Source: a virus. Taken from it: DNA of 54,142 nt. Within the stretch, counting starts at the first letter, position 1, and every line of letters begins with the position of its first letter. A program made the translations under genes and the position numbers. The DNA is taken from the IMG/VR virus record IMGVR_UViG_3300007623_000010, positions 1 through 54,142 of that record; one strand, written 5' to 3'. Shown piece after piece: positions 2,511-54,027 of this stretch. The notes under the pieces were generated by a model that saw nothing but the letters and a program-made list of their open reading frames with translations, was not told the DNA's origin and searched no databases.

Positions 2511-3734
2511 ATGATTGGATTGTTCTTAGGCAAAGGCCTTGAAGGTTGCGGAGTTACAAAATACGCAATCGAAATGATGACATATCTTAAACAAAGTAAT
2601 ATAGACTATAAGTTATTCATCGCTGACGACAAAAAACATTCACGCAATAAATCACATGATTTGAGTGAATTCAACGTTGGGTTCTATCGAGCAATCCCAC
2701 CAAAACGAAAAGTCGTACCCACATTCGACGATATGATTAATGAAGCGAAAGAATGCGACACGATCGTTATTCTATCGATGCCTGTTAAAGGTTATGACGA
2801 ACAAATTTTATCTGAAACTAAGCGTTTCTTTGACTCGATTAAAGATAAAAATGTCGTTGTAACTCATCATAATCATAGTTCATTATACATGAAAAAAGAG
2901 GTGTTGCTTGATGATGTATTGGAAATCACTAACACTATCTTTACTCATAGCGCAGTAAACCCTGTAAACAAATATATTATAAACAAATATCCAAACGCGA
3001 AAATTTTTAACTTGAATCCTTCAATGTTTATTGATTCATTTAAAAAGTTTTGGAAACCCGTAAGCGAAATTGATACAAGTGTCGTTAATTGGATCGGTAG
3101 AACTACACCATGGAAAGGATACGATTTAGCTGTTAATTTTCATACAGATCATTTGAAGGGTCTAGGATTTAGCACATCAATGCATGGTATGGACCGTGGT
3201 CCAGCATTTATTGGTTTTAAAGCACTTCACGCAGGAAAATTCATACTGCAAGACAAAGAAATCCAAGATAATAAAGACAATCTTTGTGAAATCTTTGGAC
3301 CGTACGTTCAAGACAAAATGCTCGATAAAATGAGTAAATCTGGTTTTGTATTACAATTGACAAAAATTAAACCAGAAGAATTACAGCAGTCTTATTCACT
3401 TGAATTTACACATATTGAGGCTTTGTCTATTGGCTCAATTCCTGTATTTAGAACTGAACATGGTAATGCAGTAATTAGTCGTAAAGATGATCGTCCAATT
3501 ATTGAACACGATACTGGAATCCTTTGGCTGAACGAAAATAATCAAGCAGAAGTAGCTGCAAAAATGAAAGAAATCGCTAATGATCCTGCATTATTTGAAG
3601 AGCATAGAACAAAAGCGTATAATTTCGCTAAAGAACAATGCGACAGTAAAGTAGTATTCGATGAATTCTTTAGAGTAGTTAAAGAAGAAAATTCAAACTT
3701 AAACAAAGCTGATACCATAGGAGATGAATGGTAA
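2511..3734 (+). CDS. agt: DNA alpha-glucosyltransferase
   Basis: The enzyme transfers glucose from UDP-glucose to hydroxymethylcytosine in DNA. It matches T4 Agt (400 aa) over its 407 residues: GKGLEGCGVTKYAIE near the N-terminus, NWIGRTTPWKGYD in the middle, SKSGFVLQLTK, and LEFTHIEALSIGSIPVF in the C-terminal nucleotide-sugar-binding half. It follows the gp42 pair with a good ribosome site (ggaaggaaaa). Its last codons contain the GGAG that can serve as ribosome site for the methyltransferase, and its stop overlaps that ATG. The C-terminus ends IGDEW, a tail shared with other DNA-acting proteins here. T4 Agt is reported to bind the gp45 clamp. Confidence 0.92.
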   Translation: MIGLFLGKGLEGCGVTKYAIEMMTYLKQSNIDYKLFIADDKKHSRNKSHDLSEFNVGFYRAIPPKRKVVPTFDDMINEAKECDTIVILSMPVKGYDEQILSETKRFFDSIKDKNVVVTHHNHSSLYMKKEVLLDDVLEITNTIFTHSAVNPVNKYIINKYPNAKIFNLNPSMFIDSFKKFWKPVSEIDTSVVNWIGRTTPWKGYDLAVNFHTDHLKGLGFSTSMHGMDRGPAFIGFKALHAGKFILQDKEIQDNKDNLCEIFGPYVQDKMLDKMSKSGFVLQLTKIKPEELQQSYSLEFTHIEALSIGSIPVFRTEHGNAVISRKDDRPIIEHDTGILWLNENNQAEVAAKMKEIANDPALFEEHRTKAYNFAKEQCDSKVVFDEFFRVVKEENSNLNKADTIGDEW

Positions 3735-4966
3735 TGAAGTGGATTACAATTATACCATTGGCAGGTGGATATCCAGTGGGTGCTCAGAAAGATCTAGGTA
3801 CTGTTCCAGAAGCAGTTATCTCTTGGCCTGCATTTAAAGCAAACGACTCACATTATCAAAACTATTTGAGAACTGAGTATAATTATCCTGAAGAAAATTT
3901 TGTTCTTTTAGATGAAGAAAATAACGTAACACAAGGTAGTACGAATTACCTTTCAAAGGACATTGATATTGTTATTAGCACACCGCCATGTGCCGGATTG
4001 TCAATGCTAAATACTGGTAATTCTAAGGATTCAGATTCCGGACGTGGCGCATGTGCTGCACAGAATGAATGGATGAAACGAGCGTCTGAATATGCATTAG
4101 ATGTCATTAAACCGAAGGTTCTAATATTTGAGAACGCGCCAGGTCTGTACACGTCAAAAGATGGCGAAGAAGTTATGGACTATTTGAATAGTGTTGCTGA
4201 AAAATTTGGTTATAGTACGTCAGCAATCATGACTAGCACTGATCTTCATGGTATTCCACAAATTCGTAAAAGAACATTCTTTTATTTTTGGAAGTCTGAA
4301 ACTTCGCCACTAATTGAATTTAGCTCAACCGATGAAGTTGCACCTTCAATTAAAGAATATCTTTCTAAGAAACCTCCTTTTAAACAAGACAACATTTATC
4401 CAAAAGAAGGTTTACAAAACGACCCATTTTTTCAGTTTGTTAAAACGAACTATGATGACTTTAGATCTGATATGAATGAATCACGTAAACGTACAATGAC
4501 TCATCATATTATTAAAAGCGGAAAATTTGATGAATTTCATGATTACATTCTTGAGAATCACTCCGGTACTCCTGCTGCAAAATTCGTTCAGCACGCTAAG
4601 AAAAAGTTAGCAGATAATAAGAACTTCTTCGACCCTTCACCTAATTACTTCGGTGATGATAGATTGAATGGAATTGTAGGGAAAACAGTTACTCATACAG
4701 TGCATCCAATTGAAGATCGTTTCTTGTCTTATGGTGAATTGCTGTATTTTATGGGTTATCCTAACACATTTGAGTTATTAGAACCTAAGAAAAATACGAA
4801 TCATATTGCTCAGAACGTCCCAGTCACCACAGGTGCATGGTCAGTGAAACAAGCTAGATTATTCATCGAAGGAAAACTGCAAGAAACTGATAAAAAATTC
4901 GTTAAGCAGAACAACATTAAGAAAACAACTGACACTTTAGTCGCAACACAAATGGAGGAGTGGTAA
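3734..4966 (+). CDS. Cytosine-C5 DNA methyltransferase
   Basis: All main C5-methyltransferase motifs are present in order: motif I (PLAGGYPVGA near residue 10), motif IV TPPCAGLS with catalytic Cys at about 86, motif VI FENAPG (about 132), motif VIII QIRKR (about 176), then a target-recognition region, motif IX (FLSYGELLYFMGYP) and motif X (QNVPVTTGAW). I prefer ATG 3734, which overlaps the agt stop as TAATG; an in-frame ATG lies at 3728. The combination is odd: in a phage that makes hydroxymethyl-dCMP and carries agt, C5 of cytosine should already be occupied. It could protect DNA made before hydroxymethyl-dCTP accumulates, methylate host DNA or have a changed reaction. The C-terminus ends QMEEW, like Agt and polymerase. 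Confidence 0.88.
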   Translation: MKWITIIPLAGGYPVGAQKDLGTVPEAVISWPAFKANDSHYQNYLRTEYNYPEENFVLLDEENNVTQGSTNYLSKDIDIVISTPPCAGLSMLNTGNSKDSDSGRGACAAQNEWMKRASEYALDVIKPKVLIFENAPGLYTSKDGEEVMDYLNSVAEKFGYSTSAIMTSTDLHGIPQIRKRTFFYFWKSETSPLIEFSSTDEVAPSIKEYLSKKPPFKQDNIYPKEGLQNDPFFQFVKTNYDDFRSDMNESRKRTMTHHIIKSGKFDEFHDYILENHSGTPAAKFVQHAKKKLADNKNFFDPSPNYFGDDRLNGIVGKTVTHTVHPIEDRFLSYGELLYFMGYPNTFELLEPKKNTNHIAQNVPVTTGAWSVKQARLFIEGKLQETDKKFVKQNNIKKTTDTLVATQMEEW

Positions 4967-7941: not shown

Positions 7942-9537
7942 ATGAAGAAGTTTGAAGCAACTTGGCGCGACGGTTTTAAGTTTTACGAAAGATACTACGA
8001 TACTGATCTAAACCGTTCAATGCATCGTGTAATTAATCTCCCATACGAGTGGTACGAACCATCAAGCACCGGACTTTATTCATATATTCTTGATGACTCA
8101 ATTAAGCTTGACAAAAAGCAAGGTAATGCTAAGCAAGGCCGTGATCATTACGGTTTTCTTGATCCAATGTACCGTAACATTCGTGATAATTACTGGAACA
8201 AAGATGCTTACAATCTTAAGCCACGTGTTTGGTATCTAGATATTGAAACGCGTGTTGGTACGTGTAGCACTGGTTTTCCTGTTCCCGAGAAAGCAGCAGA
8301 ACCTATATCTTTGATCCAGATCTTTGATTCTGAAACTGACGCGGTTATTATGCTTGGCGTACGTGAATGGAAACATCAGAATTCATACGATTTTGAATAC
8401 CCAGTAAAATACATCAAATGTGATGATGAAATCCATCTAATCGAAACATACCTAAAACTATTCCAAGCAATGAACCCGTTAATCATCTACGCTTGGAACG
8501 GCTTAGGATTCGATTATCCTTACATTTACAATCGTCTCAAAAATCTTGGCATGGATACTAATAAACTTAGTAACTATGGTGGTGTATCGTATTCAGAAAG
8601 CGAATTCCAAGGCCGTCTTGAATTTAAATTTAACGCTAATGGCCACTTCTATATTGATTTGATGAATGTTTACAAAAAGTTTGTATTCAGTCCTCGTCCA
8701 TCATATTCGTTGGACTCTATTGCTGAAATTGAACTAGGTGAAAACAAAGTTGATCACTCCGAGTATTCAGGGTTTGACGACTTTTACACCGGTAAATACA
8801 ACATTCCAGAAAATCCAAACGAAAAACAGTTGAACTCAGCAATCTATAAAGAAGCGATCGCTGGCAATATAGAAGAAGTAAAAGAATTAGCACACTCTGA
8901 ATTCTGTTACTACGGCTATAAAGATCCATTGCTTATTAAAAAGATCGACGACAAACAGAACTTTACAGCTCTTATGCTTATGATTGCTGAAAAAATGGGT
9001 GTACAAATTGGTGACAGTACAGGAACGGTAAAGCCGTGGTCACAGTATATCCTTAATAAATCAATGATGAATATGCAGGTAATGCCTCCACGTACGGAAA
9101 ACGATTCACCCCACGTTGTTGGCGGTTATGTACGTGATCCGAATAAAGGTAAACACAAATGGGTAATATCTGCCGACGTTAACTCAATGTATCCTCTTCT
9201 TGGAATGGTTGGTTTCAATATGAGTCCTGAAACTTATGTTGAAAAATATAACCTTCCTCCAGAACTTAGAGATATTGTACTCGCTAAGTTTAATGACCAA
9301 GATGAAGAAAAACGATTAAATATGGATGAATCAATTTGGAATGCAACTACCGAATTGTTGAACAAACATAATCTTGCACTAGGTATCAATGGTGCGGTAT
9401 TTAAGAAAGATAAGATTGGCATGGTTCCTGAAATGGTGCAAGACATCTATGATTCAAGGAAACAAGCTAAGAAAACGATGTTCAAATATCAACAGCAAAA
9501 AATCAAAATCAATGAGTTAATTAAGGAAAAATCATGA
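7942..9537 (+). CDS. 43A: DNA polymerase, N-terminal fragment (exonuclease and motif A)
   Basis: This is the first 531 residues of a family B polymerase. The 3'-5' exonuclease motifs are present: DIET (100-103), NGLGFDYPY (about 190) and YGYKDPLL. Polymerase motif A follows as SADVNSMYP (about 412-420). The fragment stops after the first fingers helix (QDIYDSRKQAKK), before motif B. Motifs B and C are on the separate gene at 10024. Together the parts (531 + 372) match T4 gp43 (898 residues), so both should be needed and assemble in trans. Split gp43 is known in some T4-like Aeromonas phages, where a homing endonuclease lies in the gap. The stop overlaps the next ATG (ATGA). Confidence 0.92.
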   Translation: MKKFEATWRDGFKFYERYYDTDLNRSMHRVINLPYEWYEPSSTGLYSYILDDSIKLDKKQGNAKQGRDHYGFLDPMYRNIRDNYWNKDAYNLKPRVWYLDIETRVGTCSTGFPVPEKAAEPISLIQIFDSETDAVIMLGVREWKHQNSYDFEYPVKYIKCDDEIHLIETYLKLFQAMNPLIIYAWNGLGFDYPYIYNRLKNLGMDTNKLSNYGGVSYSESEFQGRLEFKFNANGHFYIDLMNVYKKFVFSPRPSYSLDSIAEIELGENKVDHSEYSGFDDFYTGKYNIPENPNEKQLNSAIYKEAIAGNIEEVKELAHSEFCYYGYKDPLLIKKIDDKQNFTALMLMIAEKMGVQIGDSTGTVKPWSQYILNKSMMNMQVMPPRTENDSPHVVGGYVRDPNKGKHKWVISADVNSMYPLLGMVGFNMSPETYVEKYNLPPELRDIVLAKFNDQDEEKRLNMDESIWNATTELLNKHNLALGINGAVFKKDKIGMVPEMVQDIYDSRKQAKKTMFKYQQQKIKINELIKEKS

Positions 9538-9824
9538 AAATTGTAGAAAATGGCAAAGTAGCAGTAGCAGTTAGTTATGGCTTTGGCGCAGGATGGAGTA
9601 CATGGAACAGCGTCTCTCCATTTGATGCGCAGTTTAATCAACTCTTTTTAGAAGGTCGTCACGAAGAAGCAGTTCTATTGGCTGATCGCCACGGGCATGT
9701 TTCTGATGGAATTTTTGATATTGAGATCGTATGGGTACCAGAAGGAACTGAATTTTTCATCCGCGAAGATGACGGTGCAGAATCAATTCACTTTAAACAG
9801 GACATCCCATGGCAAGTGGCGTAA
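9534..9824 (+). CDS. Conserved small protein inside split polymerase
   Basis: This 96-residue protein begins by ATGA overlap with 43A. Its signature is VSYGFGAGWSTWN (12-24), followed by FDIEIVWVPEGTEFFI and a charged C-terminus. I recall similar small conserved proteins in phages and bacteria without a known function. It is not an endonuclease by sequence. Its place between the polymerase halves and its overlaps on both sides mean its expression is coupled to the polymerase. Confidence 0.65.
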   Translation: MKIVENGKVAVAVSYGFGAGWSTWNSVSPFDAQFNQLFLEGRHEEAVLLADRHGHVSDGIFDIEIVWVPEGTEFFIREDDGAESIHFKQDIPWQVA

Positions 9825-10027
9825 ATGAAATAACGTCTAAGACTTGCAAAACTTGTGGTAAAACGAAAGAATTAAAAAAGTTTTATCACAAGTTCAAACA
9901 TGAAAAGTTGCAGTGTTGTGCACATTGTAAAGATTGCTGTAAAGTTTTGCGTCAGCAGAAAGAAACAAAGCAAATTAAGCAAGTACTAGGTATAATATCT
10001 AATATGAATTTAGAAGGACGACTATGA
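9809..10027 (+). CDS. Small zinc-finger protein, possible homing-endonuclease remnant
   Basis: This 72-residue protein has CKTCGKTKEL (13-22) and a Cys cluster CCAHCKDCC (36-44), so it likely binds zinc. The CxxCG-KxxxF-Y pattern followed by CxxC resembles the N-terminal zinc ribbon of phage HNH endonucleases, but no HNH catalytic part follows. It overlaps the previous gene by 16 bases and the 43B start by four (ATGA). It may be a relic of the mobile endonuclease that split gene 43, or a zinc-binding factor for the polymerase. A promoter for 43B lies inside its coding sequence. Confidence 0.6.
   Translation: MASGVNEITSKTCKTCGKTKELKKFYHKFKHEKLQCCAHCKDCCKVLRQQKETKQIKQVLGIISNMNLEGRL
9975..9996 (+). 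promoter_or_regulatory. Internal TTAA-N12-TATAAT promoter for 43B
   Basis: TTAAGC starts at 9975, exactly 16 bp before TATAAT (9991-9996), inside the zinc-finger ORF. The site ends about 28 bp before the 43B ATG, so the C-terminal polymerase half can be transcribed on its own. Confidence 0.55.
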
Positions 10028-11142
10028 AAGACCCATTAGATTATACAGACGATGAACTAAACGCAATGTCAGTCGACGAACTAAAACAACTTGCACAAGA
10101 AGCAGAATACAAAGAAGGACTCTTCAATACGAGACAGCTCGTTGAAAAGGTACTTATTAACTCACTTTATGGTGCTCTTGCGAATAAGTACTTTCCACTA
10201 TTCAATGAACAAATGGCAGCTGCTATCACCGGTAATGGTAGATACTTTATTCAAAAGCTAGCTAACTACATTGAGAATACACTTCAGGGTCTTCTACCGC
10301 AGGAAAAACCGTATATTGTTTATGGCGATACTGACTCAGTTTATTATCATGTTGAACCTTTCGTAGAAAAATACATTGAAAATAACCCTGGGCAAAGCAT
10401 TGATCACTATGTTACATGGGCTGATTCATTTGAACAAAAAGTAATCCAACCCGTTATTCAGAAAACAATTGACGATTTTGCTACTGAACTAAATGCATAT
10501 AACGTAGGTGCTATCGGCGCAGAACGTGAAATCATTGCTGATGCAGCAGTCTTTACAGCTAAGAAAAAGTACTATGCACGTGTTAGAGATTCAGAAGGTA
10601 CACGTTTCCCCGAGTCAGACCCTTACATTAAAGTTATGGGCCTTGAAATCGCTAAATCAAGTACTCCTACATGGGCTAAGAAAAAGCTTAAAGAAGCTAT
10701 TCCTCATATTCTTGATAAAGATGAAAATGATTTACGCGACTGGGTTAACGAAATTAAGCAAGAATTCATTACTACCAATCCAAACAATATCGCATTGATC
10801 GGTGGTGTATCCAATCTTAACTATGATCTTCAAAAAGATAAAGGTGTGCCAATTGGTTCTCGTGCTGCTTTAGTACATAATGATTATGTTCAAACTCATG
10901 GACTAGCAGAAAAGTATTCACCTATTCAAGCTGGCGATAAGTGTAAGCGTCTATTTTTACAACAACCCAATGTATTTAATAGCAACATTATTGCTTATAC
11001 AAATGATGCTTTCGTTAACGAAATTGATTGTATTGATTTTGATACAAACTTTGAAAAAGGTTTCTTATCGGCGTTGAAATTAATGGTTGAACCTTTGAAC
11101 TACGATCTTGAAAAAGAAACAGCGAATTTAGATGATTGGTAA
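10024..11142 (+). CDS. 43B: DNA polymerase, C-terminal fragment (motifs B and C)
   Basis: This 372-residue protein starts with an acidic helical segment, then family B motif B (KVLINSLYG, 42-50) and motif C (YGDTDSVYY, 100-108), followed by the palm and thumb regions and a KKKYYARV segment. It completes the polymerase begun at 7942. Its ATG overlaps the preceding stop (ATGA), and it has its own promoter upstream. The C-terminus ends ANLDDW. In T4 and RB69 gp43 the extreme C-terminus is the gp45 clamp-binding peptide, so this tail is a good candidate for the same role. Confidence 0.92.
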   Translation: MKDPLDYTDDELNAMSVDELKQLAQEAEYKEGLFNTRQLVEKVLINSLYGALANKYFPLFNEQMAAAITGNGRYFIQKLANYIENTLQGLLPQEKPYIVYGDTDSVYYHVEPFVEKYIENNPGQSIDHYVTWADSFEQKVIQPVIQKTIDDFATELNAYNVGAIGAEREIIADAAVFTAKKKYYARVRDSEGTRFPESDPYIKVMGLEIAKSSTPTWAKKKLKEAIPHILDKDENDLRDWVNEIKQEFITTNPNNIALIGGVSNLNYDLQKDKGVPIGSRAALVHNDYVQTHGLAEKYSPIQAGDKCKRLFLQQPNVFNSNIIAYTNDAFVNEIDCIDFDTNFEKGFLSALKLMVEPLNYDLEKETANLDDW

Positions 11143-14949: not shown

Positions 14950-15681
14950 ATGGGCTCTTTCAAATCGTTTCTTGCAGAGAATGAAGATTTATTTCAACAG
15001 ATTACCGATATTTTAGATGAATTGTCTGAAGATGAAATTGACGAATTAGGATATGTGTTATATAGTGACTTCTTCACAGATACAGATGATGTAGAAGACG
15101 ACGAAGATATTCAAGAATTCAGTAAAGAAGACGTCATTGACATGATTAAGGAACTAGGTCCTGATATGTACGAAGCAATTCTTGAGATGCTCGAAGATGA
15201 TGATGAAGACGATGATGATGAAGACGACGATGATGAAGACGACGATGATGATGAAGACATGGATGAATCTTCTCCTCTAGAAATGATTAAAAAATTCCTA
15301 GGAAAGAAAATTTTCCATAAAAATTATCAAGCTGCTCTCGAAATGATGAAGAAAACTGGTAGATCAGCAGCTGATATTGCTCGTGTTTTTGATCATGTAG
15401 ATGCACGTGAACTTGACAAACTAGCGACTCAAATGAACGAAGCTGTTTCAAGATTCATGAAAGCTCGTAACATGAATAAGAAAAAACGAAAATTTATGTC
15501 AACGTCAAAGGCTGAACTACGTAGAACCAAAGCACAACGTCGCCGAGATGCTCGCAAAAATAAAGCAAAGGCTAGAAGATATTACAAAGCAAATAAAGCC
15601 AAAATCGCTAAATATCAGAAATCAAGAAGTGATGCTATAAAGAAAGGCAAACATAAAGTTAAGAAAAGACGCAACGCTTAA
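14950..15681 (+). CDS. Acidic-basic head-core-like protein with capsid tag
   Basis: The 243-residue protein begins MGSFKSFLAEN, with L-A-E cleavable by a gp21-type protease. It then has an acidic helical part, a run of about 25 Asp/Glu residues (81-105) and, after residue 165, a highly basic C-terminus rich in Lys/Arg (RRTKAQRRRDARKNKAK). T4 prohead core proteins gp67 and gp68 are acidic and cleaved by gp21, and T4 internal proteins are basic and DNA-binding; this chain combines both. Late expression is supported by TATAAATA at 14915. I infer an internal head or scaffold-core protein; homology is not shown. Confidence 0.6.
   Translation: MGSFKSFLAENEDLFQQITDILDELSEDEIDELGYVLYSDFFTDTDDVEDDEDIQEFSKEDVIDMIKELGPDMYEAILEMLEDDDEDDDDEDDDDEDDDDDEDMDESSPLEMIKKFLGKKIFHKNYQAALEMMKKTGRSAADIARVFDHVDARELDKLATQMNEAVSRFMKARNMNKKKRKFMSTSKAELRRTKAQRRRDARKNKAKARRYYKANKAKIAKYQKSRSDAIKKGKHKVKKRRNA
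15192..15267 (+). repeat. GAT/GAA/GAC triplet-repeat tract
   Basis: An imperfect run of GATGAT(GAT)GAAGAC units encodes the Asp/Glu tract. Such tracts expand and contract by slippage, so length variation between isolates is expected. Confidence 0.75.
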
Positions 15682-18912: not shown

Positions 18913-19473
18913 TTGAAAATATATGCAACTAGCGATCAACACTTCACGCACTTTAACATAATTAAATACGCTAATAGACCGTTTGAATTAACAACAGAAG
19001 GCGTTAAAGATTGCATTAATACCATTGTTAATAATCATAATAAAATAGTAACAAACGACGACTTGGTCATTCATGTCGGAGATTTAGCACACGGTCGAAA
19101 TCAAACTAAAGATAACATAAAATATATTATTGAAGGCCACAAGGGTAAGCGTATTCTTGTTAAAGGCAATCACGATCAATGGGAAAAAGAATACTATTTG
19201 TCGTTGTTCGATGAGGTTCATGATTATATAATTAAAGACAATATTTTCATTTGTCATTATCCATGTTATCAGTCTAGATGGACGAGCCCTGAAGAGAAAG
19301 AAATGATTAAAATTCTTGAAGAGTCTGGGTGCGACACCATTATTCATGGACACGTACACAATAAGAATCCAGATGATTGGGAACCCGACGGATATAAACG
19401 TATTAATGTTTGTGTAGATTACGAAAAAAATAATTTTTTTCCAGTTGAAATCACTGATTTATTTTATAAATAA
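18913..19473 (+). CDS. Calcineurin-like metallophosphoesterase
   Basis: This 186-residue protein has the metal-binding set: SDQHF (7-11), VGDLAHG (about 55-61), GNHD (about 77-80), CHYP and GHVHN. The first motif begins at residue 7, so the TTG at 18913, preceded by aggaaaggat, must be the start. Members hydrolyse phosphoesters (cyclic nucleotides, RNA ends, small nucleotides). Substrate unknown; cyclic-nucleotide cleavage against host signalling is one possibility. Confidence 0.8.
   Translation: MKIYATSDQHFTHFNIIKYANRPFELTTEGVKDCINTIVNNHNKIVTNDDLVIHVGDLAHGRNQTKDNIKYIIEGHKGKRILVKGNHDQWEKEYYLSLFDEVHDYIIKDNIFICHYPCYQSRWTSPEEKEMIKILEESGCDTIIHGHVHNKNPDDWEPDGYKRINVCVDYEKNNFFPVEITDLFYK
19465..19472 (+). 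promoter_or_regulatory. Late promoter upstream of hsp20
   Basis: TATAAATA overlaps the phosphoesterase stop region. The transcript leader would carry a 6-bp hairpin (ACGTCA at 19512-19517 with TGACGT at 19521-19526) before the hsp20 ribosome site. Confidence 0.6.
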
Positions 19474-20263: not shown

Positions 20264-21454
20264 ATGGGTGGTAACGTAACCGCAAAGAATTGGACTACTG
20301 GTGAAGAAACTAGAGCTGAGAAAATCCAAGTAAAAGACATTGGACGCCAAGAGTTCATTAAAACTTTCGTTGAAATCTTTAAGAAAATGAATAAGGATTT
20401 TAAAGCGAAATACAAAAAGCCAATCTGGGTTAATGAAGATATTTTGACATCTGGTTTTGCGTTTAATGGCAGCACATCCTTTATAATGGACCCAACATTA
20501 TCTGACGAAGAAGTCATGAAATACAAGCCATCTGCCGGTGATTTAGACATTACTGTGCCAGAAGAAATCGGTACAGAATTATGGGAATTCTTAAATAAAT
20601 TAGAAGGTAAAGAAATTTTACCCGGTGCACGCTACATGGGTTCTAATCGTGGTAATAAAGATGCGATCGGAGACCAAATTAACGCTGTCATCATGGTAGA
20701 TTTCAAAAATGGACAACGTGCTTATGCACAAGTTGACTTTGAACTATTACCATTTGAAAATGATAAACCAACTGAATGGGCTAAATTTAGTCACTCTTCT
20801 TCGTTTGAAGATGCGAAAGCTGGCGTTAAAGCTGTTCACCATAAGTTCTTAATTTCTTCAATTGTCGGTGGAGCTTCAGTACGTGACGATATTGTTATTG
20901 CGACACCAGCATCTACACCTGAAAAAATTAGACTTAAGAAAATGGCACAGCTACCGCGTATGCTAAAATTCTCAGTTACACGTGGTATTCGTATTGCTTA
21001 TGAGCCAATGATTGGAGAAGACGGTAAAATTATAGAAATCGATGGAAAACAAGTTTATCGTGAAATTCCAACTAAGGATAGTACATACGAAACTGTTATT
21101 GCTGAAATCTATAAATTAGCCTTTAGACAATTAGTTGGGCATGAGGCTGACGTTAGAAAATTTGAATCTTTTGTTGGAGTTCTTGAATTGATGAAACAAT
21201 TCATGACTAAACAGGAAATTGATCGTACACATGATCGTTATTTACAGATGCTCTTTGAACCAACTAAAGGTAGAGCACAAGAATTAGAAGCTGGTAATCC
21301 ACAATTAGATTATCAAGTAAAATCAGCTGGTTATCAGCGATTCATAAAAGAATTAAAACTTAAAGATAAATCTCAGAAAATGGTCGAAGAATATTACAAA
21401 ACATACCGATTAAGAGAATCTTTTAGAGACTATTTAAATACATTAGGAGAATAA
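20264..21454 (+). CDS. Nucleotidyltransferase-fold protein (pol beta type)
   Basis: This 396-residue protein carries the pattern of the pol-beta/MNT superfamily: FNGSTSFIMDP (68-78, the GS motif), AGDLDITVP (91-99, two metal-binding Asp) and QVDFE (156-160, the third Asp). The spacing fits an active NTase that transfers a nucleotide to RNA, protein or a small molecule. The C-terminus ends ESFRDYLNTLGE, very like the N-terminal capsid tags elsewhere in the window. A late promoter and co-transcription with the ligase fusion suggest a virion-associated enzyme. The target is unknown. Confidence 0.65.
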   Translation: MGGNVTAKNWTTGEETRAEKIQVKDIGRQEFIKTFVEIFKKMNKDFKAKYKKPIWVNEDILTSGFAFNGSTSFIMDPTLSDEEVMKYKPSAGDLDITVPEEIGTELWEFLNKLEGKEILPGARYMGSNRGNKDAIGDQINAVIMVDFKNGQRAYAQVDFELLPFENDKPTEWAKFSHSSSFEDAKAGVKAVHHKFLISSIVGGASVRDDIVIATPASTPEKIRLKKMAQLPRMLKFSVTRGIRIAYEPMIGEDGKIIEIDGKQVYREIPTKDSTYETVIAEIYKLAFRQLVGHEADVRKFESFVGVLELMKQFMTKQEIDRTHDRYLQMLFEPTKGRAQELEAGNPQLDYQVKSAGYQRFIKELKLKDKSQKMVEEYYKTYRLRESFRDYLNTLGE

Positions 21455-21686: not shown

Positions 21687-23198
21687 ATGAACTTTGTCCA
21701 ATACATAAATGAGGGAAAAGAGCAGCTGGATATTAGTATCCTAGCTGCTGGTAAATACCTTACGAATCAAAAACGAATTGAAGAATTTCTTTCGTCTAAC
21801 GTCACAATTGAACATAAAACTGATGGTATTAAGCTAACTGTCATTAAGAAAGATAACAATGGTACACTAGACGATTACGTTTTTGCTTATAAAGGTCAGG
21901 TTCTTTATAGCGCAGAGTATGCTTACAATTCTAAAACTAAAGTTAAGAAAGAATCTATTGGTCCTTCACAGTTTGGATTAGTGTTTGATCATTTTAAAAA
22001 ACTTGGTAAGAATAGTATTCCAGTTGATACAGAATTATTCATTGAATTCTTAATGTCAAAACCGACACTATCATCTAACTATAACACTAAACATAAGATG
22101 GTTCTCATTGGTTACGCTAAAACCAAATGGCAAGAAAAGTTCGGTAGACTAATAAGTAATCCAGCGCCTATGCAAGAAGCTAAGAGAAACGATTACGCTA
22201 AACAAATTAAAATTGACATCCCTCAATTATTGTTTGTAGGCTCTATGGGTTCTCAAATAAGTTTTAGTGCAGGTATTAAAAACAATGCGCTGAAAGCAGA
22301 ATTTGAATCTAGCAAATTGTCAATGAACTGGGATAATGCTGAATTGTTATTGGATGACATTCGTCAATTATTCTTAAATGTTGAGTCTAAATATGGCGGC
22401 AAAGAAGAAGGTGTTGTAATTAAATACAACAACATGATTCTAAAATGGCAGCAAGAATATCAATTAGACCAAACTGCCAGAGCGGCTATTAAAGCTAAAT
22501 ATAGAGAAGACGACATTTTAGCAGAAAATCGTTATTGGGAGTACGTTAATAATCAAGCTTATCGTTTATCAAATTCTATTGTTGTTAAATCTAGAAAATT
22601 GAATGACGTTCTTGAAGAATTAGCTTTAGAACTTAAAAAACTAAAAATAGAAATTACTCATAGCAAAAAGACTGATGTCATGATTAAAGACGACATTCAG
22701 CTAAATACTAAAACCTTGCTTGTCAAGAAAATGCGTGGAAATAATAACGCATTGATTTTGGGCAAATTCAGAGTATTGACCAAAGAAGGTCATTATAAAT
22801 TGATTAAGCGTGCAGCGACATTATATGATAATGTTGTGGTTTGTATTGTTACTTCGAAAGATACTAAAGATACTAAAGATCTACGCGAAGAAATGATGAG
22901 AAAGGCATTCCCGAATGTTGAAATAATTCATCATAATTCTGGAAACATTAGCGGTATTTTGAATAAATCGCCAATAAATATTAATGCGGTTTATGCTGGC
23001 ACAGACAGGGTTGCTGCTTACAAAGAACAACTTAAGTATCGTCTTGGCGTTGAAGTTAGAGAGATGCCTCGTACTGATTCAGATATTAGCGCGAGTAAAG
23101 TCATCGATAATATTGCGAATCAAGAATTCTTTGAGAAAAATACTCCGAAAGAACTCCACTCAATGTATAATAAGATTAAAAAGGTATATGAAAAATGA
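21687..23198 (+). CDS. Capsid-tagged ligase fused to NMNAT-like nucleotidyltransferase
   Basis: This 503-residue protein starts MNFVQYINEG, a capsid-targeting-like tag with an I-N-E site. Residues about 40-260 carry covalent-nucleotidyltransferase ligase motifs: K44-T-D-G (motif I), ELFIEF (116-121), EGVVIK (241-246, motif IV) and MILKWQ (250-255, motif V), so an RNA or DNA end-joining or adenylating enzyme. Residues about 345-503 form an HxGH-type nucleotidylyltransferase: LGKFRVLTKEGHYKLI (358-373) and DISASKV (466-472), as in NMN adenylyltransferases. It is co-transcribed with a pol-beta NTase and a predicted nuclease. It could repair RNA or restore NAD after host attack; both roles are inference. 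Confidence 0.7.
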   Translation: MNFVQYINEGKEQLDISILAAGKYLTNQKRIEEFLSSNVTIEHKTDGIKLTVIKKDNNGTLDDYVFAYKGQVLYSAEYAYNSKTKVKKESIGPSQFGLVFDHFKKLGKNSIPVDTELFIEFLMSKPTLSSNYNTKHKMVLIGYAKTKWQEKFGRLISNPAPMQEAKRNDYAKQIKIDIPQLLFVGSMGSQISFSAGIKNNALKAEFESSKLSMNWDNAELLLDDIRQLFLNVESKYGGKEEGVVIKYNNMILKWQQEYQLDQTARAAIKAKYREDDILAENRYWEYVNNQAYRLSNSIVVKSRKLNDVLEELALELKKLKIEITHSKKTDVMIKDDIQLNTKTLLVKKMRGNNNALILGKFRVLTKEGHYKLIKRAATLYDNVVVCIVTSKDTKDTKDLREEMMRKAFPNVEIIHHNSGNISGILNKSPININAVYAGTDRVAAYKEQLKYRLGVEVREMPRTDSDISASKVIDNIANQEFFEKNTPKELHSMYNKIKKVYEK

Positions 23199-24091
23199 AA
23201 TTTAGAGATGTTTTAGAGGGAAAAGTCAACGTAAAAAGACTTAACGAAAGCAATGTCATGTCTATGGCGGAAAGTCAGGGCGCAGAAGCTACTGATGCGT
23301 TAAGAAAGCATGTTAATGAAAAACTAGGTATTAAAGCCGACATCCCAAAAATTAAAACAAATAATTTTAGTGCGTTCGCTAGCCAATACAATTCTTTGTA
23401 TAATCAGTTTAAGAAAGAGTTCATCTCTATTTTTAATTACGAAGTAAAGGGTATCGGTAGAGGCGAAATTTTGCTTTCTTATCTTGCTGATAACATTAGT
23501 ATTAATGGCGGTAAGGGTGATTACGACGTAAACTTTGGTAACACTAAAATGGAAGTTAAAGAAGTTGCAACAACTGCAACTTATTTTAAAAACTTTAGAC
23601 TAGGTGTACTTTCAAGAGAGTATTTGCAAAAAGCATATAATGATATTAAGTATCTTTACGGCGTTGCAAAATATCACATTCCAGAAATTAATACTGCTGC
23701 ATTTGAAGCAAAAGTCGCAAAAGGTGAGTTAACTACGTTAATTAAACCATTAAAAGACTTCGTTCCAACTAATCTAGGTGATGTTCAACGAATAGCTGTA
23801 GAAATTACAAAAACCGGCAAATTGTTTTTCGAAGGGCGTGAAGTAGGTAATATCAAGAATGCACAAGCAATTATAACTGATATTCTTGATAAAGAAACTC
23901 ACAAGTTCAAATCTTTTAATATGATAGAAACCGAATTAAGAAATAATCTTAATAAGAAAACAATGCCTTACATTTTCTTTGGTGATAATAAAGGTAAAGA
24001 AACGGCAATGCTGTTTTATAGAAAGGATTTAGGCGATCTTGAAATTGATACTATCACACAGGGTAATGTTAAGGTCAAAATTCCTAGATAA
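23195..24091 (+). CDS. Capsid-tagged PD-(D/E)XK-like nuclease candidate
   Basis: This 298-residue protein starts MKFRDVLEGK, a variant of the tag without a perfect (L/I)-x-E site. Residues 89-120 show GRGEILLSYLADN, then GDYDV and KMEVKEV, the E...D...ExK layout of PD-(D/E)XK nucleases. The rest is helical without recognised motifs. Its ATG overlaps the ligase stop (ATGA), so the two are made together. If the nuclease call is right, a late cassette combines cutting, nucleotide transfer and joining activities. Confidence 0.5.
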   Translation: MKFRDVLEGKVNVKRLNESNVMSMAESQGAEATDALRKHVNEKLGIKADIPKIKTNNFSAFASQYNSLYNQFKKEFISIFNYEVKGIGRGEILLSYLADNISINGGKGDYDVNFGNTKMEVKEVATTATYFKNFRLGVLSREYLQKAYNDIKYLYGVAKYHIPEINTAAFEAKVAKGELTTLIKPLKDFVPTNLGDVQRIAVEITKTGKLFFEGREVGNIKNAQAIITDILDKETHKFKSFNMIETELRNNLNKKTMPYIFFGDNKGKETAMLFYRKDLGDLEIDTITQGNVKVKIPR

Positions 24092-24147: not shown

Positions 24148-24336
24148 ATGAAGTTCAAGAAATATCTCAAAAGCATTTCTGAAGTAACAACATCCGGTGA
24201 TATTGCTACAGTAGACACAAAATTAGACATGACAAAAAGATACGAAAAGCATCATAATAAAGGCAAAAAGTGCAAGACTCACAAACAGTTTAATTGTGAA
24301 ATTTGCGAGAACGAAAAGTTCGAAAACCAAAAGTAA
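24148..24336 (+). CDS. Small Lys/His/Cys-rich protein with capsid tag
   Basis: This 62-residue protein starts MKFKKYLKSISEV (I-S-E site at 10-12). Its C-terminal third has HHNKGKKCKTHKQFNCEICENEK, with three Cys and three His that could bind zinc. It is very basic, as T4 internal proteins are. Its own promoter and repeat lie upstream. Confidence 0.55.
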   Translation: MKFKKYLKSISEVTTSGDIATVDTKLDMTKRYEKHHNKGKKCKTHKQFNCEICENEKFENQK

Positions 24337-24357: not shown

Positions 24358-24780
24358 ATGAGAGTAGGATTCACGGCCAGTTCGTTCGACCTTCTTCATG
24401 CAGGACATGTGGCAATGCTAGAAGAAAGTCGAAAGAATTGTGATTATTTAATTGTTGGTTTAAATGTCAATCCATTTAAAAACGGACGTTATCCTGTACA
24501 AGGTTTGTTTGAAAGGTTTAAACAACTCCAAGCAGTTAAATGGGTTGACGAAATCATTCCTTACAATGGTGAAAATGAGCTGATTGAAATTTTTAATACG
24601 ATACACATTGACGTTCGATTTATTGGATCAGACTACAAAAATTCACCATTCACCGGGCAAGAAATAAACGAAAGGAACCATACTGAGATCTTCTTTAATC
24701 GAAGAGATCATAATTTTAGTTCGAGTCGCTTAAAGAAACAAGTCGTCGACAATCAATTAGAAGTAAAGGAAGAAGGATAA
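24358..24780 (+). CDS. Cytidylyltransferase-like enzyme (TagD/RfaE type)
   Basis: This 140-residue protein has the HxGH motif in FDLLHAGHVAML (12-23), an RxxR-type central region and SSSRLKK (121-127), the ISSTxI-like motif. The length and layout match glycerol-3-phosphate cytidylyltransferase or RfaE-domain enzymes, which make CDP- or ADP-linked precursors. A role in surface or DNA modification precursors is possible. Ribosome site gaaggaaagaat. Confidence 0.8.
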   Translation: MRVGFTASSFDLLHAGHVAMLEESRKNCDYLIVGLNVNPFKNGRYPVQGLFERFKQLQAVKWVDEIIPYNGENELIEIFNTIHIDVRFIGSDYKNSPFTGQEINERNHTEIFFNRRDHNFSSSRLKKQVVDNQLEVKEEG

Positions 24781-42633: not shown

Positions 42634-43017
42634 ATGAAATTTAAAACATTCTTGGAAGAACAACGATTGGTCGAACTTGAAGAAGCTACAATGGCTAACA
42701 TCAAGAAAGAAGTTCAAGCTGAACTCGACAAAATGAGCGATGCTGAACTGAAAGCTGCAGTTAAGAAACAAAAGACAACTAAGCCGATTGATCACAACCG
42801 TGGTATGATCGCAATGGATGTTATGAACGCTGAAATGAAAAAGCGTGGTCTGAAAGAAGAAGTTGAAGAACAATCAGATAAGCAAAAAGCATATCAAGAA
42901 TTCTTCGAAAAAACTCTTAAAAAGTACGGCGTAAAATCTCCTTCAGAGCTATCAGACGAAGATAAGAAAAAATTCTTTGATGAAGTTGATGCTGGTTGGA
43001 ACGCTGACGACGAATAA
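42634..43017 (+). CDS. Capsid-tagged helical protein
   Basis: This 127-residue protein starts MKFKTFLEEQ (L-E-E site at 7-9). The rest is helical and highly charged (KKEVQAELDKMSDAELKAAVKKQK, later KAYQEFFEKTLKKYG), with an acidic C-terminus. It resembles T4-type internal head proteins in character only. A strong terminator follows. Confidence 0.6.
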   Translation: MKFKTFLEEQRLVELEEATMANIKKEVQAELDKMSDAELKAAVKKQKTTKPIDHNRGMIAMDVMNAEMKKRGLKEEVEEQSDKQKAYQEFFEKTLKKYGVKSPSELSDEDKKKFFDEVDAGWNADDE

Positions 43018-52664: not shown

Positions 52665-52692
52665 ACTCTTATATCAATTGGAAGGATTAAAA

Positions 52693-54027
52693 ATGATCTA
52701 CGAAATAATCAAAGAATTAAATTCCGATAATGGGTCAAACTATAAAATTGAAGTTCTAAAAAAACATAAAGATAACAAACTCTTCAAAGATGTGCTTGAA
52801 ATGACATACGATCGTGTAAAGTACACTTACGGCGTAACAAATGCGCAAATTGAAAAATTTACCCCAGAAGATATCGATTTGCCTCTCAATTTAGAATTTG
52901 CGCTGGCTTCTTTAAAAAGTAATCTTTGCACTCGTAAATACACTGGCCACGCGGCACTTCAGCTTGCTGCTAATCTTCGTCACAATTTATCGAACCATGG
53001 CGACAAAATCGTTTTCGATCTAATCATTAATCGTGATCTTAAAGCAAATATTGGCAAAACAATAATCAATAAGGTGTTTAAGGGACTAATAACAAAGCCA
53101 GTGTACATGCGATGCGACACATATAATCAAAAAACAGCTAAAAATATTTCTTATCCTGCTCTAGTGCAATTAAAGGCCGATGGAACATATCGTGAGTTTA
53201 CTGTAGAAAACGGAAATGTAACTGCTAGATCAAGAAGTGGAGAAGAGTATGAGTATCCAATTCTATTCAACGCATTGAAGTTCTACCCAGATGGAGTTTA
53301 TGTTGGCGAACTAACTGTTCGCGGTCACAAAGATCGTGCTAAAGGTAATGGTTTAATAAATAGTGATAATCCACCCCATGACGACATTATGCTCGATCTA
53401 TGGGATATGATTTCATTAGAAGAATATGCCAAAGCCGCGAAAAAGGACAAGAAAGATCCATGTACAACACCTTACATGGAGCGTTGGACAGAATTAAATA
53501 CTGTTGAATTTAATTTGCCGCATAAGAATATTCGCATCATTGAAGCATTTGTAGTCGAAAATCTTCAAGAAGCGCTAGAAGCAACTTCTAACTGGATGAA
53601 CAGTGGATACGAAGGCGCAATATTAAAAGATACTAGCGGGGTATTCAAAGATGGGACAAGTAAACAACAGCTTAAGCTTAAATTGGAAATCTCTGCTGAG
53701 ATGCGATGCACTGGATTCCAAGAAGGCACAAAGGGAACTAAGCGCGAAGGAAAGGTCGGAAGTATTATATTCTCAAATGATGAAGGTACAATCAAAGGTA
53801 AATGTTCCGGATTCACTGATAAAGAGTTGGACTTCTTCACTGAGAAACAGGATGAACTCATTGGAAAAATAATGGAAGTTCAGTTTAATGACTTAACTAA
53901 AGCCGAACATAACGATTTCTATGCTCTATCACATCCGAGATTTATTGAGTGGAGAGACGACAAAAACGAAACTGATACCTTAGAAAAGGTGTTCAAGCTA
54001 CGTGAAATGGCGATGGAGCTGTCTTAA
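52693..54027 (+). CDS. 30: ATP-dependent DNA ligase
   Basis: This 444-residue protein (T4: 487) has VQLKADGTYREF (about 168-179, catalytic Lys in KxDG), RSRSGEEY, YVGELTV (motif III), GYEGAILKD (motif IV) and KLKLE (motif V) in order. It seals nicks in phage DNA. ATG 52693 with ggaaggattaaaa is preferred over TTG 52678. Confidence 0.92.
   Translation: MIYEIIKELNSDNGSNYKIEVLKKHKDNKLFKDVLEMTYDRVKYTYGVTNAQIEKFTPEDIDLPLNLEFALASLKSNLCTRKYTGHAALQLAANLRHNLSNHGDKIVFDLIINRDLKANIGKTIINKVFKGLITKPVYMRCDTYNQKTAKNISYPALVQLKADGTYREFTVENGNVTARSRSGEEYEYPILFNALKFYPDGVYVGELTVRGHKDRAKGNGLINSDNPPHDDIMLDLWDMISLEEYAKAAKKDKKDPCTTPYMERWTELNTVEFNLPHKNIRIIEAFVVENLQEALEATSNWMNSGYEGAILKDTSGVFKDGTSKQQLKLKLEISAEMRCTGFQEGTKGTKREGKVGSIIFSNDEGTIKGKCSGFTDKELDFFTEKQDELIGKIMEVQFNDLTKAEHNDFYALSHPRFIEWRDDKNETDTLEKVFKLREMAMELS

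Follow-up and report, generated by a model that had tools for sequence, protein, structure and literature searches.

A phage protein combining an Rnl2-like ligase domain and a HIGH-family nucleotidylyltransferase domain, with a putative capsid-targeting leader

What would a T4-like phage do with a ligase domain and a nucleotidylyltransferase domain tied together in one polypeptide? The question is raised by a single open reading frame (21687..23198, plus strand, ATG start, 503 residues) in the window, i.e. the whole stretch of viral DNA that was analysed, 54,142 bases of a T4-like phage with gp41-, gp43-, gp44-, gp62-, gp15- and gp32-like genes and a terminase gene, among others. The original prediction placed both domains in this chain, and the Rnl2 and HIGH folds, the motifs and the full-length homologues bear this out. 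It made no mention of partner genes, of unfused neighbours or of a leader that may target the head; new here are the unfused neighbour genes, the Pol-beta-like partner, the capsid-targeting-like leader and the replaced second lysine of motif V. The best explanation, held tentatively and at a little short of an even chance, is an enzyme that seals nucleic-acid ends, belongs to a co-conserved set and, in the leader-bearing lineages, is carried in the head and delivered at infection.

The fusion protein is a member of an uncharacterised family of T4-like phages, phrog_27149 (full-length match, E 1.5e-132), which is annotated in PHROGs as of unknown function. Relatives occur in 21 phage records (15 Campylobacter and 6 Vibrio, with coverage of 80% or more at a single place) and, at full length and 33-100% identity, at 28 loci of IMG/VR viral contigs. 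None of the 58 candidate stretches in genome contigs encodes a relative, so the family looks viral, and a bacterial origin was rejected. No description of an RNA ligase-NMNAT fusion in phages was found in the open-licence literature. The family alignment (A2) comprises 24 members, omitting a fragment (L007), a gene with an in-frame stop (L013) and the near duplicates L014, L020, L021, L031 and L036; L008 and L011 denote a single contig. In L013 (6001-7650) the fusion-family gene is broken by the stop after 245 codons. The AlphaFold2 model of the fusion protein, for which the input was 22 window and contig sequences, has a mean pLDDT of 90 and a pTM of 0.84.

In the model, the Rnl2-like ligase domain (residues ~17-261; 21735..22469, plus strand) is followed by a helical linker domain, delimited by the secondary structure (residues ~262-348; 22470..22730, plus strand), and by the HIGH-family nucleotidylyltransferase domain (residues ~350-503; 22734..23195, plus strand). 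The ranges originally given for the two domains (40-260 and 345-503) were right, as was the choice of K44 as the ligase lysine. The best PDB match of the model in Foldseek is T4 RNA ligase 2 (2hvr, E 6.2e-7; 1s68, 7.3e-5). The ligase residues are K44 (motif I), E120 (motif III), E241-G242 (motif IV), and K253 with Q255 (motif V). The K44xDG residues (K44, D46, G47) are found in 23/23 aligned members that reach motif I, and E120, E241-G242 and K253 are kept in 24/24, counts that are biased by the motif III and motif V peptides with which the family search was seeded. K44 would be the nucleophile of the reaction. The fold, motifs I, III and IV and the first lysine of motif V are common to this domain and T4 RNA ligase 2 (Rnl2, gp24.1; PF09414), whereas KxQ in place of KxK, the C-terminal HIGH domain and a PF09414 match that is below the cut-off or absent set the window protein apart. 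The Pfam RNA_ligase profile PF09414 matches 7/24 family members at E ≤ 0.1 (best 1.2e-5); for the window protein it gives no match at E ≤ 10, and the curated cut-off is not reached. Because the KxK of motif V is not found, the domain is filed as Rnl2-like, not as canonical Rnl2.

For the predicted ligase domain ATP is a likelier source of the adenylate than NAD, as had been proposed, because there is no room for a LigA-type Ia domain and no NAD-ligase match. Only 43 residues precede K44, which sits on the first strand of the ligase domain in the model, and the first 16 are of very low confidence, in agreement with the earlier reading that no Ia domain is present. NAD-ligase families are absent from the Pfam matches of the 24 family members. 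On these two grounds an NAD-dependent (LigA) ligase was set aside as the main reading.

Motif V is where the domain departs from its relatives. Of the motif IV and V assignment made originally, E241-G242 and K253 are present, whereas the second KxK lysine is replaced by Gln255 (K253-W-Q255). Across the family the motif reads KxQ in 16/24 (over-counted, since the search seeds included a KxQQ peptide), KxV/M/L in 7/24 and KxK in 1/24 (L032 only), against KxK in 29/29 phage Rnl2 sequences and in 4/4 other RNA ligases of related phages. The ligase-like partner proteins described below are also altered, with KxV in 73/73 DUF6267 proteins, KVQ in phage Moby and KIV in phage X1. The register (K253 = K225 and Q255 = K227 of T4 Rnl2) was read by eye in A2 and is bridged by L032 (LKIKNNYS); in the combined MAFFT alignment, gaps shift the family motif V against Rnl2. 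When Rnl2 and the ligase domain are aligned locally by hhalign (E 0.062), motif Ia falls one residue away from its MAFFT position, and owing to this disagreement an equivalent of R55K at motif Ia is not claimed; two ordinary ligases (L158, L159) also have a lysine at motif Ia. For adapter ligation, a ligase that naturally has Gln where T4 Rnl2 K227Q was engineered is of practical interest.

The replacement of the second lysine in 23/24 members is consistent with a split of the chemistry, a reading that we consider improbable: the HIGH domain would form an A(5')pp(5')N bond at ends that carry a 5' phosphate, and the K227Q-like ligase domain would mainly seal them. This bond is of the kind that a HIGH domain would make in NAD; no HIGH enzyme is known to adenylylate nucleic-acid ends, and the charging of ends by the HIGH domain for the ligase domain is a bold and weakly supported proposal. 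T4 Rnl2 K227Q is described as keeping the sealing of pre-adenylylated ends while being poor in enzyme adenylylation (PMC3149579), an observation that gave rise to the idea of ends charged by the HIGH domain. Among natural enzymes, however, the Methanobacterium RNA ligase, with Thr at the second motif V lysine, is reported to have been purified mostly in the self-adenylylated form, and PAB1020 has Val at this position (PMC3514331); these archaeal ligases weaken the case that an enzyme with a natural K227Q cannot self-adenylylate. The retention of K44 in all members also speaks against the split, though sealing alone may not need this residue, as does the over-counting of KxQ.

The C-terminal domain carries H369, G438-T-D-R441 and S468; among the aligned members that extend this far H369, G438-x-D-R441 and S468 do not vary, and Pfam CTP_transf_like matches 23/24 members. 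With the C-terminal part, Foldseek finds PPAT (4nat, E 2.5e-6) and also NadR and NadM. In the structure comparison PPAT 3x1k gives Z 16.3 (rmsd 2.8 over 143) and the archaeal NMNAT 1f9a Z 15.3 (rmsd 2.6 over 145), and the profile of the 24 members matches PPAT and NMNAT alike. Judged by predicted fold and profile, PPAT and NMNAT are about level, and neither comparison singles out a substrate. The NCBIfam cut-offs for NMNAT are not reached (NF002243, 18.5 of 127 bits; TIGR01526, 16.2 of 341), nor is that for PPAT (CoaD; TIGR01510, 22.2 of 103.3 bits). With the NadM/NadR-type NMNAT and PPAT enzymes of the HIGH superfamily this domain shares its predicted HIGH-type fold and, in the (H/T)xGH motif, the invariant H369. 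The window protein differs from them in its GSDR-type motif, in a degenerate GKFRVLTKEGH, in scores far below the equivalog cut-offs and in the fusion partner, which is a ligase and not a Nudix or kinase domain.

The original label of NMNAT for this domain is not supported. The NMNAT motifs GRFxPxHxGH and ISxTxxR are not found in the window protein, which has GKFRVLTKEGH (with LTKEGH as a degenerate HxGH) and ISASKVI at these places; near-canonical motifs are present only in some family members. An NMNAT that restores NAD against an NAD-depleting defence, with a ligase domain that uses this NAD or acts separately on RNA, is in our view unlikely, though it has the closeness of the folds in its favour, NMNAT scores being no more than about 1 Z unit behind the best match. 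The NMN that an NAD-using ligase sets free could then be recycled within the same chain, but the Ia domain is absent. L032 carries a canonical GKFKPFHKGH and is closest in the PDB to an archaeal NMNAT, and the unfused HIGH proteins of phages Moby and X1 have the canonical motif GRFQPxHxGH, because of which they may be NMNATs there. NadV, the NMN-making enzyme, is encoded by both of these phages and by two contigs (4/14 related records); against the NAD reading, it was not found in the other 10/14, including CP220, two Vibrio phages and three cyanophages.

The preferred reading, an end-sealing enzyme, draws on the neighbouring genes. A Pol-beta-like nucleotidyltransferase candidate is encoded upstream of the fusion (20264..21454, plus strand), with conserved motifs read by eye (MGGN...GSTSF...GDLDI...QVDFE). 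In its alignment (A5) G92-D93-x-D95 and Q156-x-D158 are kept in 18/18 sequences and G69-S70 in at least 90%; searches for a PDB sequence relative and for a Pfam match gave none. In 21/26 fused loci (23 of the 28 IMG/VR loci with the window, L001 and L004) the gene is upstream of the fusion and shares its strand. Of the remaining five loci, three are on contigs that leave too little sequence ahead of the gene; in CP220 the Pol-beta-like gene is located elsewhere, and L023 has none nearby. Among annotated phages the protein occurs in 22 records, namely the same 15 Campylobacter and 6 Vibrio phages as the fusion, together with Xanthomonas phage X1. The Pol-beta-like protein goes with the fusion as a co-conserved partner.

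The fusion would act with this partner and, in some phages, also with a P-loop kinase and a phosphoesterase. A calcineurin-like phosphoesterase, possibly an end-healing partner, is encoded in the window at 18913..19473 (plus strand; Pfam Metallophos, 2.1e-11), and 7 loci have such a gene close to the fusion; a P-loop kinase gene is likewise close to it in 7 loci. The kinase of L008 (4470-4991; AAA_33, 1.8e-9), with relatives in seven loci, lies directly before the fusion gene and has a leader-like start, MRFIQYLIE. Downstream in the window, a nuclease-like candidate (23195..24091, plus strand) overlaps the fusion gene by 4 bases; it has a PD-(D/E)XK-like motif seen by eye, gives no Pfam match, and its start resembles a capsid-targeting leader. 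This nuclease-like gene of the window is near the fusion in 4 loci, with relatives adjoining the fusion in L026, L027 and L030. A small protein with a leader-like start and a relative in Vibrio phages follows (24148..24336, plus strand), and the frame at 24358-24780, still close to the fusion gene, encodes another HIGH protein, cytidylyltransferase-like and standing alone (CTP_transf_like, 9.1e-14; RfaE-like phrog_7878).

Ligase, kinase, phosphoesterase and nucleotidyltransferase are listed as parts of phage RNA repair (PMC9503650, PMC7824862), and RNA ends are preferred as the substrate because the partner set matches these parts. The phage, moreover, already has a T4-type ATP DNA ligase (52678-54027; phrog_114, 1.4e-110), for which reason the substrate would be broken RNA, e.g. 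tRNA cut by a host defence, rather than DNA.

The first nine residues of the fusion protein, MNFVQYINE (21687..21713, plus strand), form a putative capsid-targeting leader. They are disordered in the model and end in the pattern [LIV]xE, with a predicted cleavage after E9, so that the mature protein would begin with GKEQLDISI. The T4 prohead cleavage motif is LxE or IxE. Of the 24 family N-termini examined, 7 lack a leader, including the Campylobacter and Vibrio members, so packaging would be confined to part of the family; of the 17 leaders that of L014, a duplicate of L015, was set aside and the other 16 were tested, and [LIV]xE lies 2-9 residues before the conserved core in 15/16, against 3.4 expected from shuffles, a statistic that is too strong as the sequences are related. 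In the window 4/59 open reading frames have a T4-like start pattern, against 0.15 expected and with 0/2000 shuffles reaching 4, the pattern having been chosen after viewing the sequences. The three frames other than the fusion (157-603, 14950-15681 and 42634-43017; MGFKDYLNE, MGSFKSFLAE and MKFKTFLEE) encode candidate head-packaged proteins.

The Pol-beta-like protein has an invariant GGN at its presumed mature start (18/18, A5). In 15/18 sequences GGN directly follows the initial Met, and in the others it follows leaders that end in FILE (CP220), LLE (L033) and MNE (L018); here a leader seems to have been added with the GGN end kept. CP220 has the leader on the Pol-beta-like partner and none on the fusion, while the window has the reverse. 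The prohead protease (PF03420) is found in 7/12 related records (5 over the cut-off) and was not found in the window fragment. In L041, L042 and L043 (G006, G002 and G004) the protease match lies in a long open frame (622-691 residues), which may represent a fusion of the protease with a second head protein.

The internal proteins of T4 are marked by a capsid-targeting sequence, and one of them, IPI, is injected (PMC3012670); T4 leaders are described as 10-20 residues long, and the proteases of T4 and of giant phages as cleaving after Glu (PMC5694885). The short N-terminal leader of the fusion has the same form as those of IPI and other T4 internal proteins, with an LxE/IxE-type end, whereas the cargo here is a ligase-nucleotidylyltransferase and its packaging is predicted from the leader sequence. 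The strongest outside support for head packaging comes by analogy from published cyanophage virions: the protein T4-GC190 was detected in purified S-SM1 virions (PMC3037559), and a cytidylyltransferase of S-CREM2 in S-CREM2 virions (PMC10665884). The available parts of the published virion lists of CP220 and IBB_35 do not name the fusion protein, which may nonetheless be present.

The fusion protein is probably head-packaged in the leader-bearing lineages. In the window lineage the leader would load it into the head, the prohead protease would trim it after I-N-E, and the protein would be injected, so that repair could begin before phage genes are expressed. If this is true, the phage injects a nucleic-acid sealing enzyme, and repair runs ahead of a host RNA- or DNA-cutting defence instead of following early gene expression. 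The leader and the cyanophage virion proteins would also suit a head component or scaffold-like protein with a catalytically idle ligase domain, and a related fusion of jumbo phage LR756500 has ENLDG in place of KxDG; we regard an idle domain as improbable, as the residues of motifs I, III and IV and the first lysine of motif V persist down to about 32% identity.

In Stenotrophomonas phage Moby and Xanthomonas phage X1 similar ligase-like and HIGH domains are separate, adjacent genes. They belong to a run of overlapping or nearly overlapping genes for a GS/GDxD-type protein, related to that of window 20264-21454 by BLAST clustering, a second protein (nuclease-like in Moby by a motif seen by eye), the ligase-like protein, in which KxDG, EGV and K follow one another as in ligases, and a HIGH protein that carries GSDR.

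In the cyanophages the gene order is a nuclease-like protein (motif by eye), DUF6267 and a cytidylyltransferase. Of the 73 contigs found with DUF6267 the next frame is readable in 71 (two contigs end first); this HIGH partner starts with MK[KS]FS[AS]FLxE in 71/71 and has G[GSA]DR in 68/71, the other three being truncated frames. In a tblastn search of 50,697 phage records the cyanophage HIGH protein was found in 518 and DUF6267 in 468, with near-equal numbers per cyanophage group. The S-SM1 cytidylyltransferase is T4-GC190, which starts with MKKFSAFLNE and directly follows the DUF6267-like T4-GC71. This adjacent pair, a HIGH protein with G[GS]DR and a KxDG...EG...K protein, resembles the two halves of the fusion; it differs in consisting of separate genes and in having the leader on the HIGH protein, i.e. 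on the other partner, and the relationship of the cyanophage HIGH protein is no more than distant.

DUF6267 is tentatively a ligase relative, on the basis of its motif order and model. The order KxDG...EG...K fits a ligase, and in the VIA-align list ligase entries occupy every row but two (3gm2, 4r32), with Z of 6.2 or less. The model (pLDDT 79) has no significant Foldseek match, the best ligase row (E 0.24) standing below a portal protein; the DUF6267 profile does not match the window ligase domain, no PDB sequence match was found for DUF6267, and PF09414 was not found in three cyanophage genomes. No paper naming DUF6267 was found in the open-licence literature.

A broader version of the split chemistry, which we rate as decidedly improbable, would see in these arrangements a virion-delivered two-enzyme ligation machine across T4-like phages, from cyanophages to those of Campylobacter and Vibrio. 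The HIGH protein would activate 5' ends or make an NAD donor and the motif-V-altered ligase would seal, replacing the three steps of one enzyme, while the Pol-beta-like protein beside the fused forms would add lost nucleotides. If true, this would explain what the cyanophage core 'cytidylyltransferase' and DUF6267 do; for T4-GC190 (the 'cytidylyltransferase' found in virions) and DUF6267/T4-GC71, two core genes whose pairing in T4-like cyanophages is unexplained, it offers a directly testable hypothesis.

Two further arrangements were observed. In jumbo phage LR756500 (L006), a ligase-like protein with SEKLDG and a leader-like start (1255-2520) lies next to the fusion mentioned above (2552-4513), in which the degenerate ligase-like part with ENLDG is joined to a HIGH domain. 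In the window, the gp43-like DNA polymerase is split into two open reading frames (7942-9537 and 10024-11142), with a small frame (9534-9824) between them.
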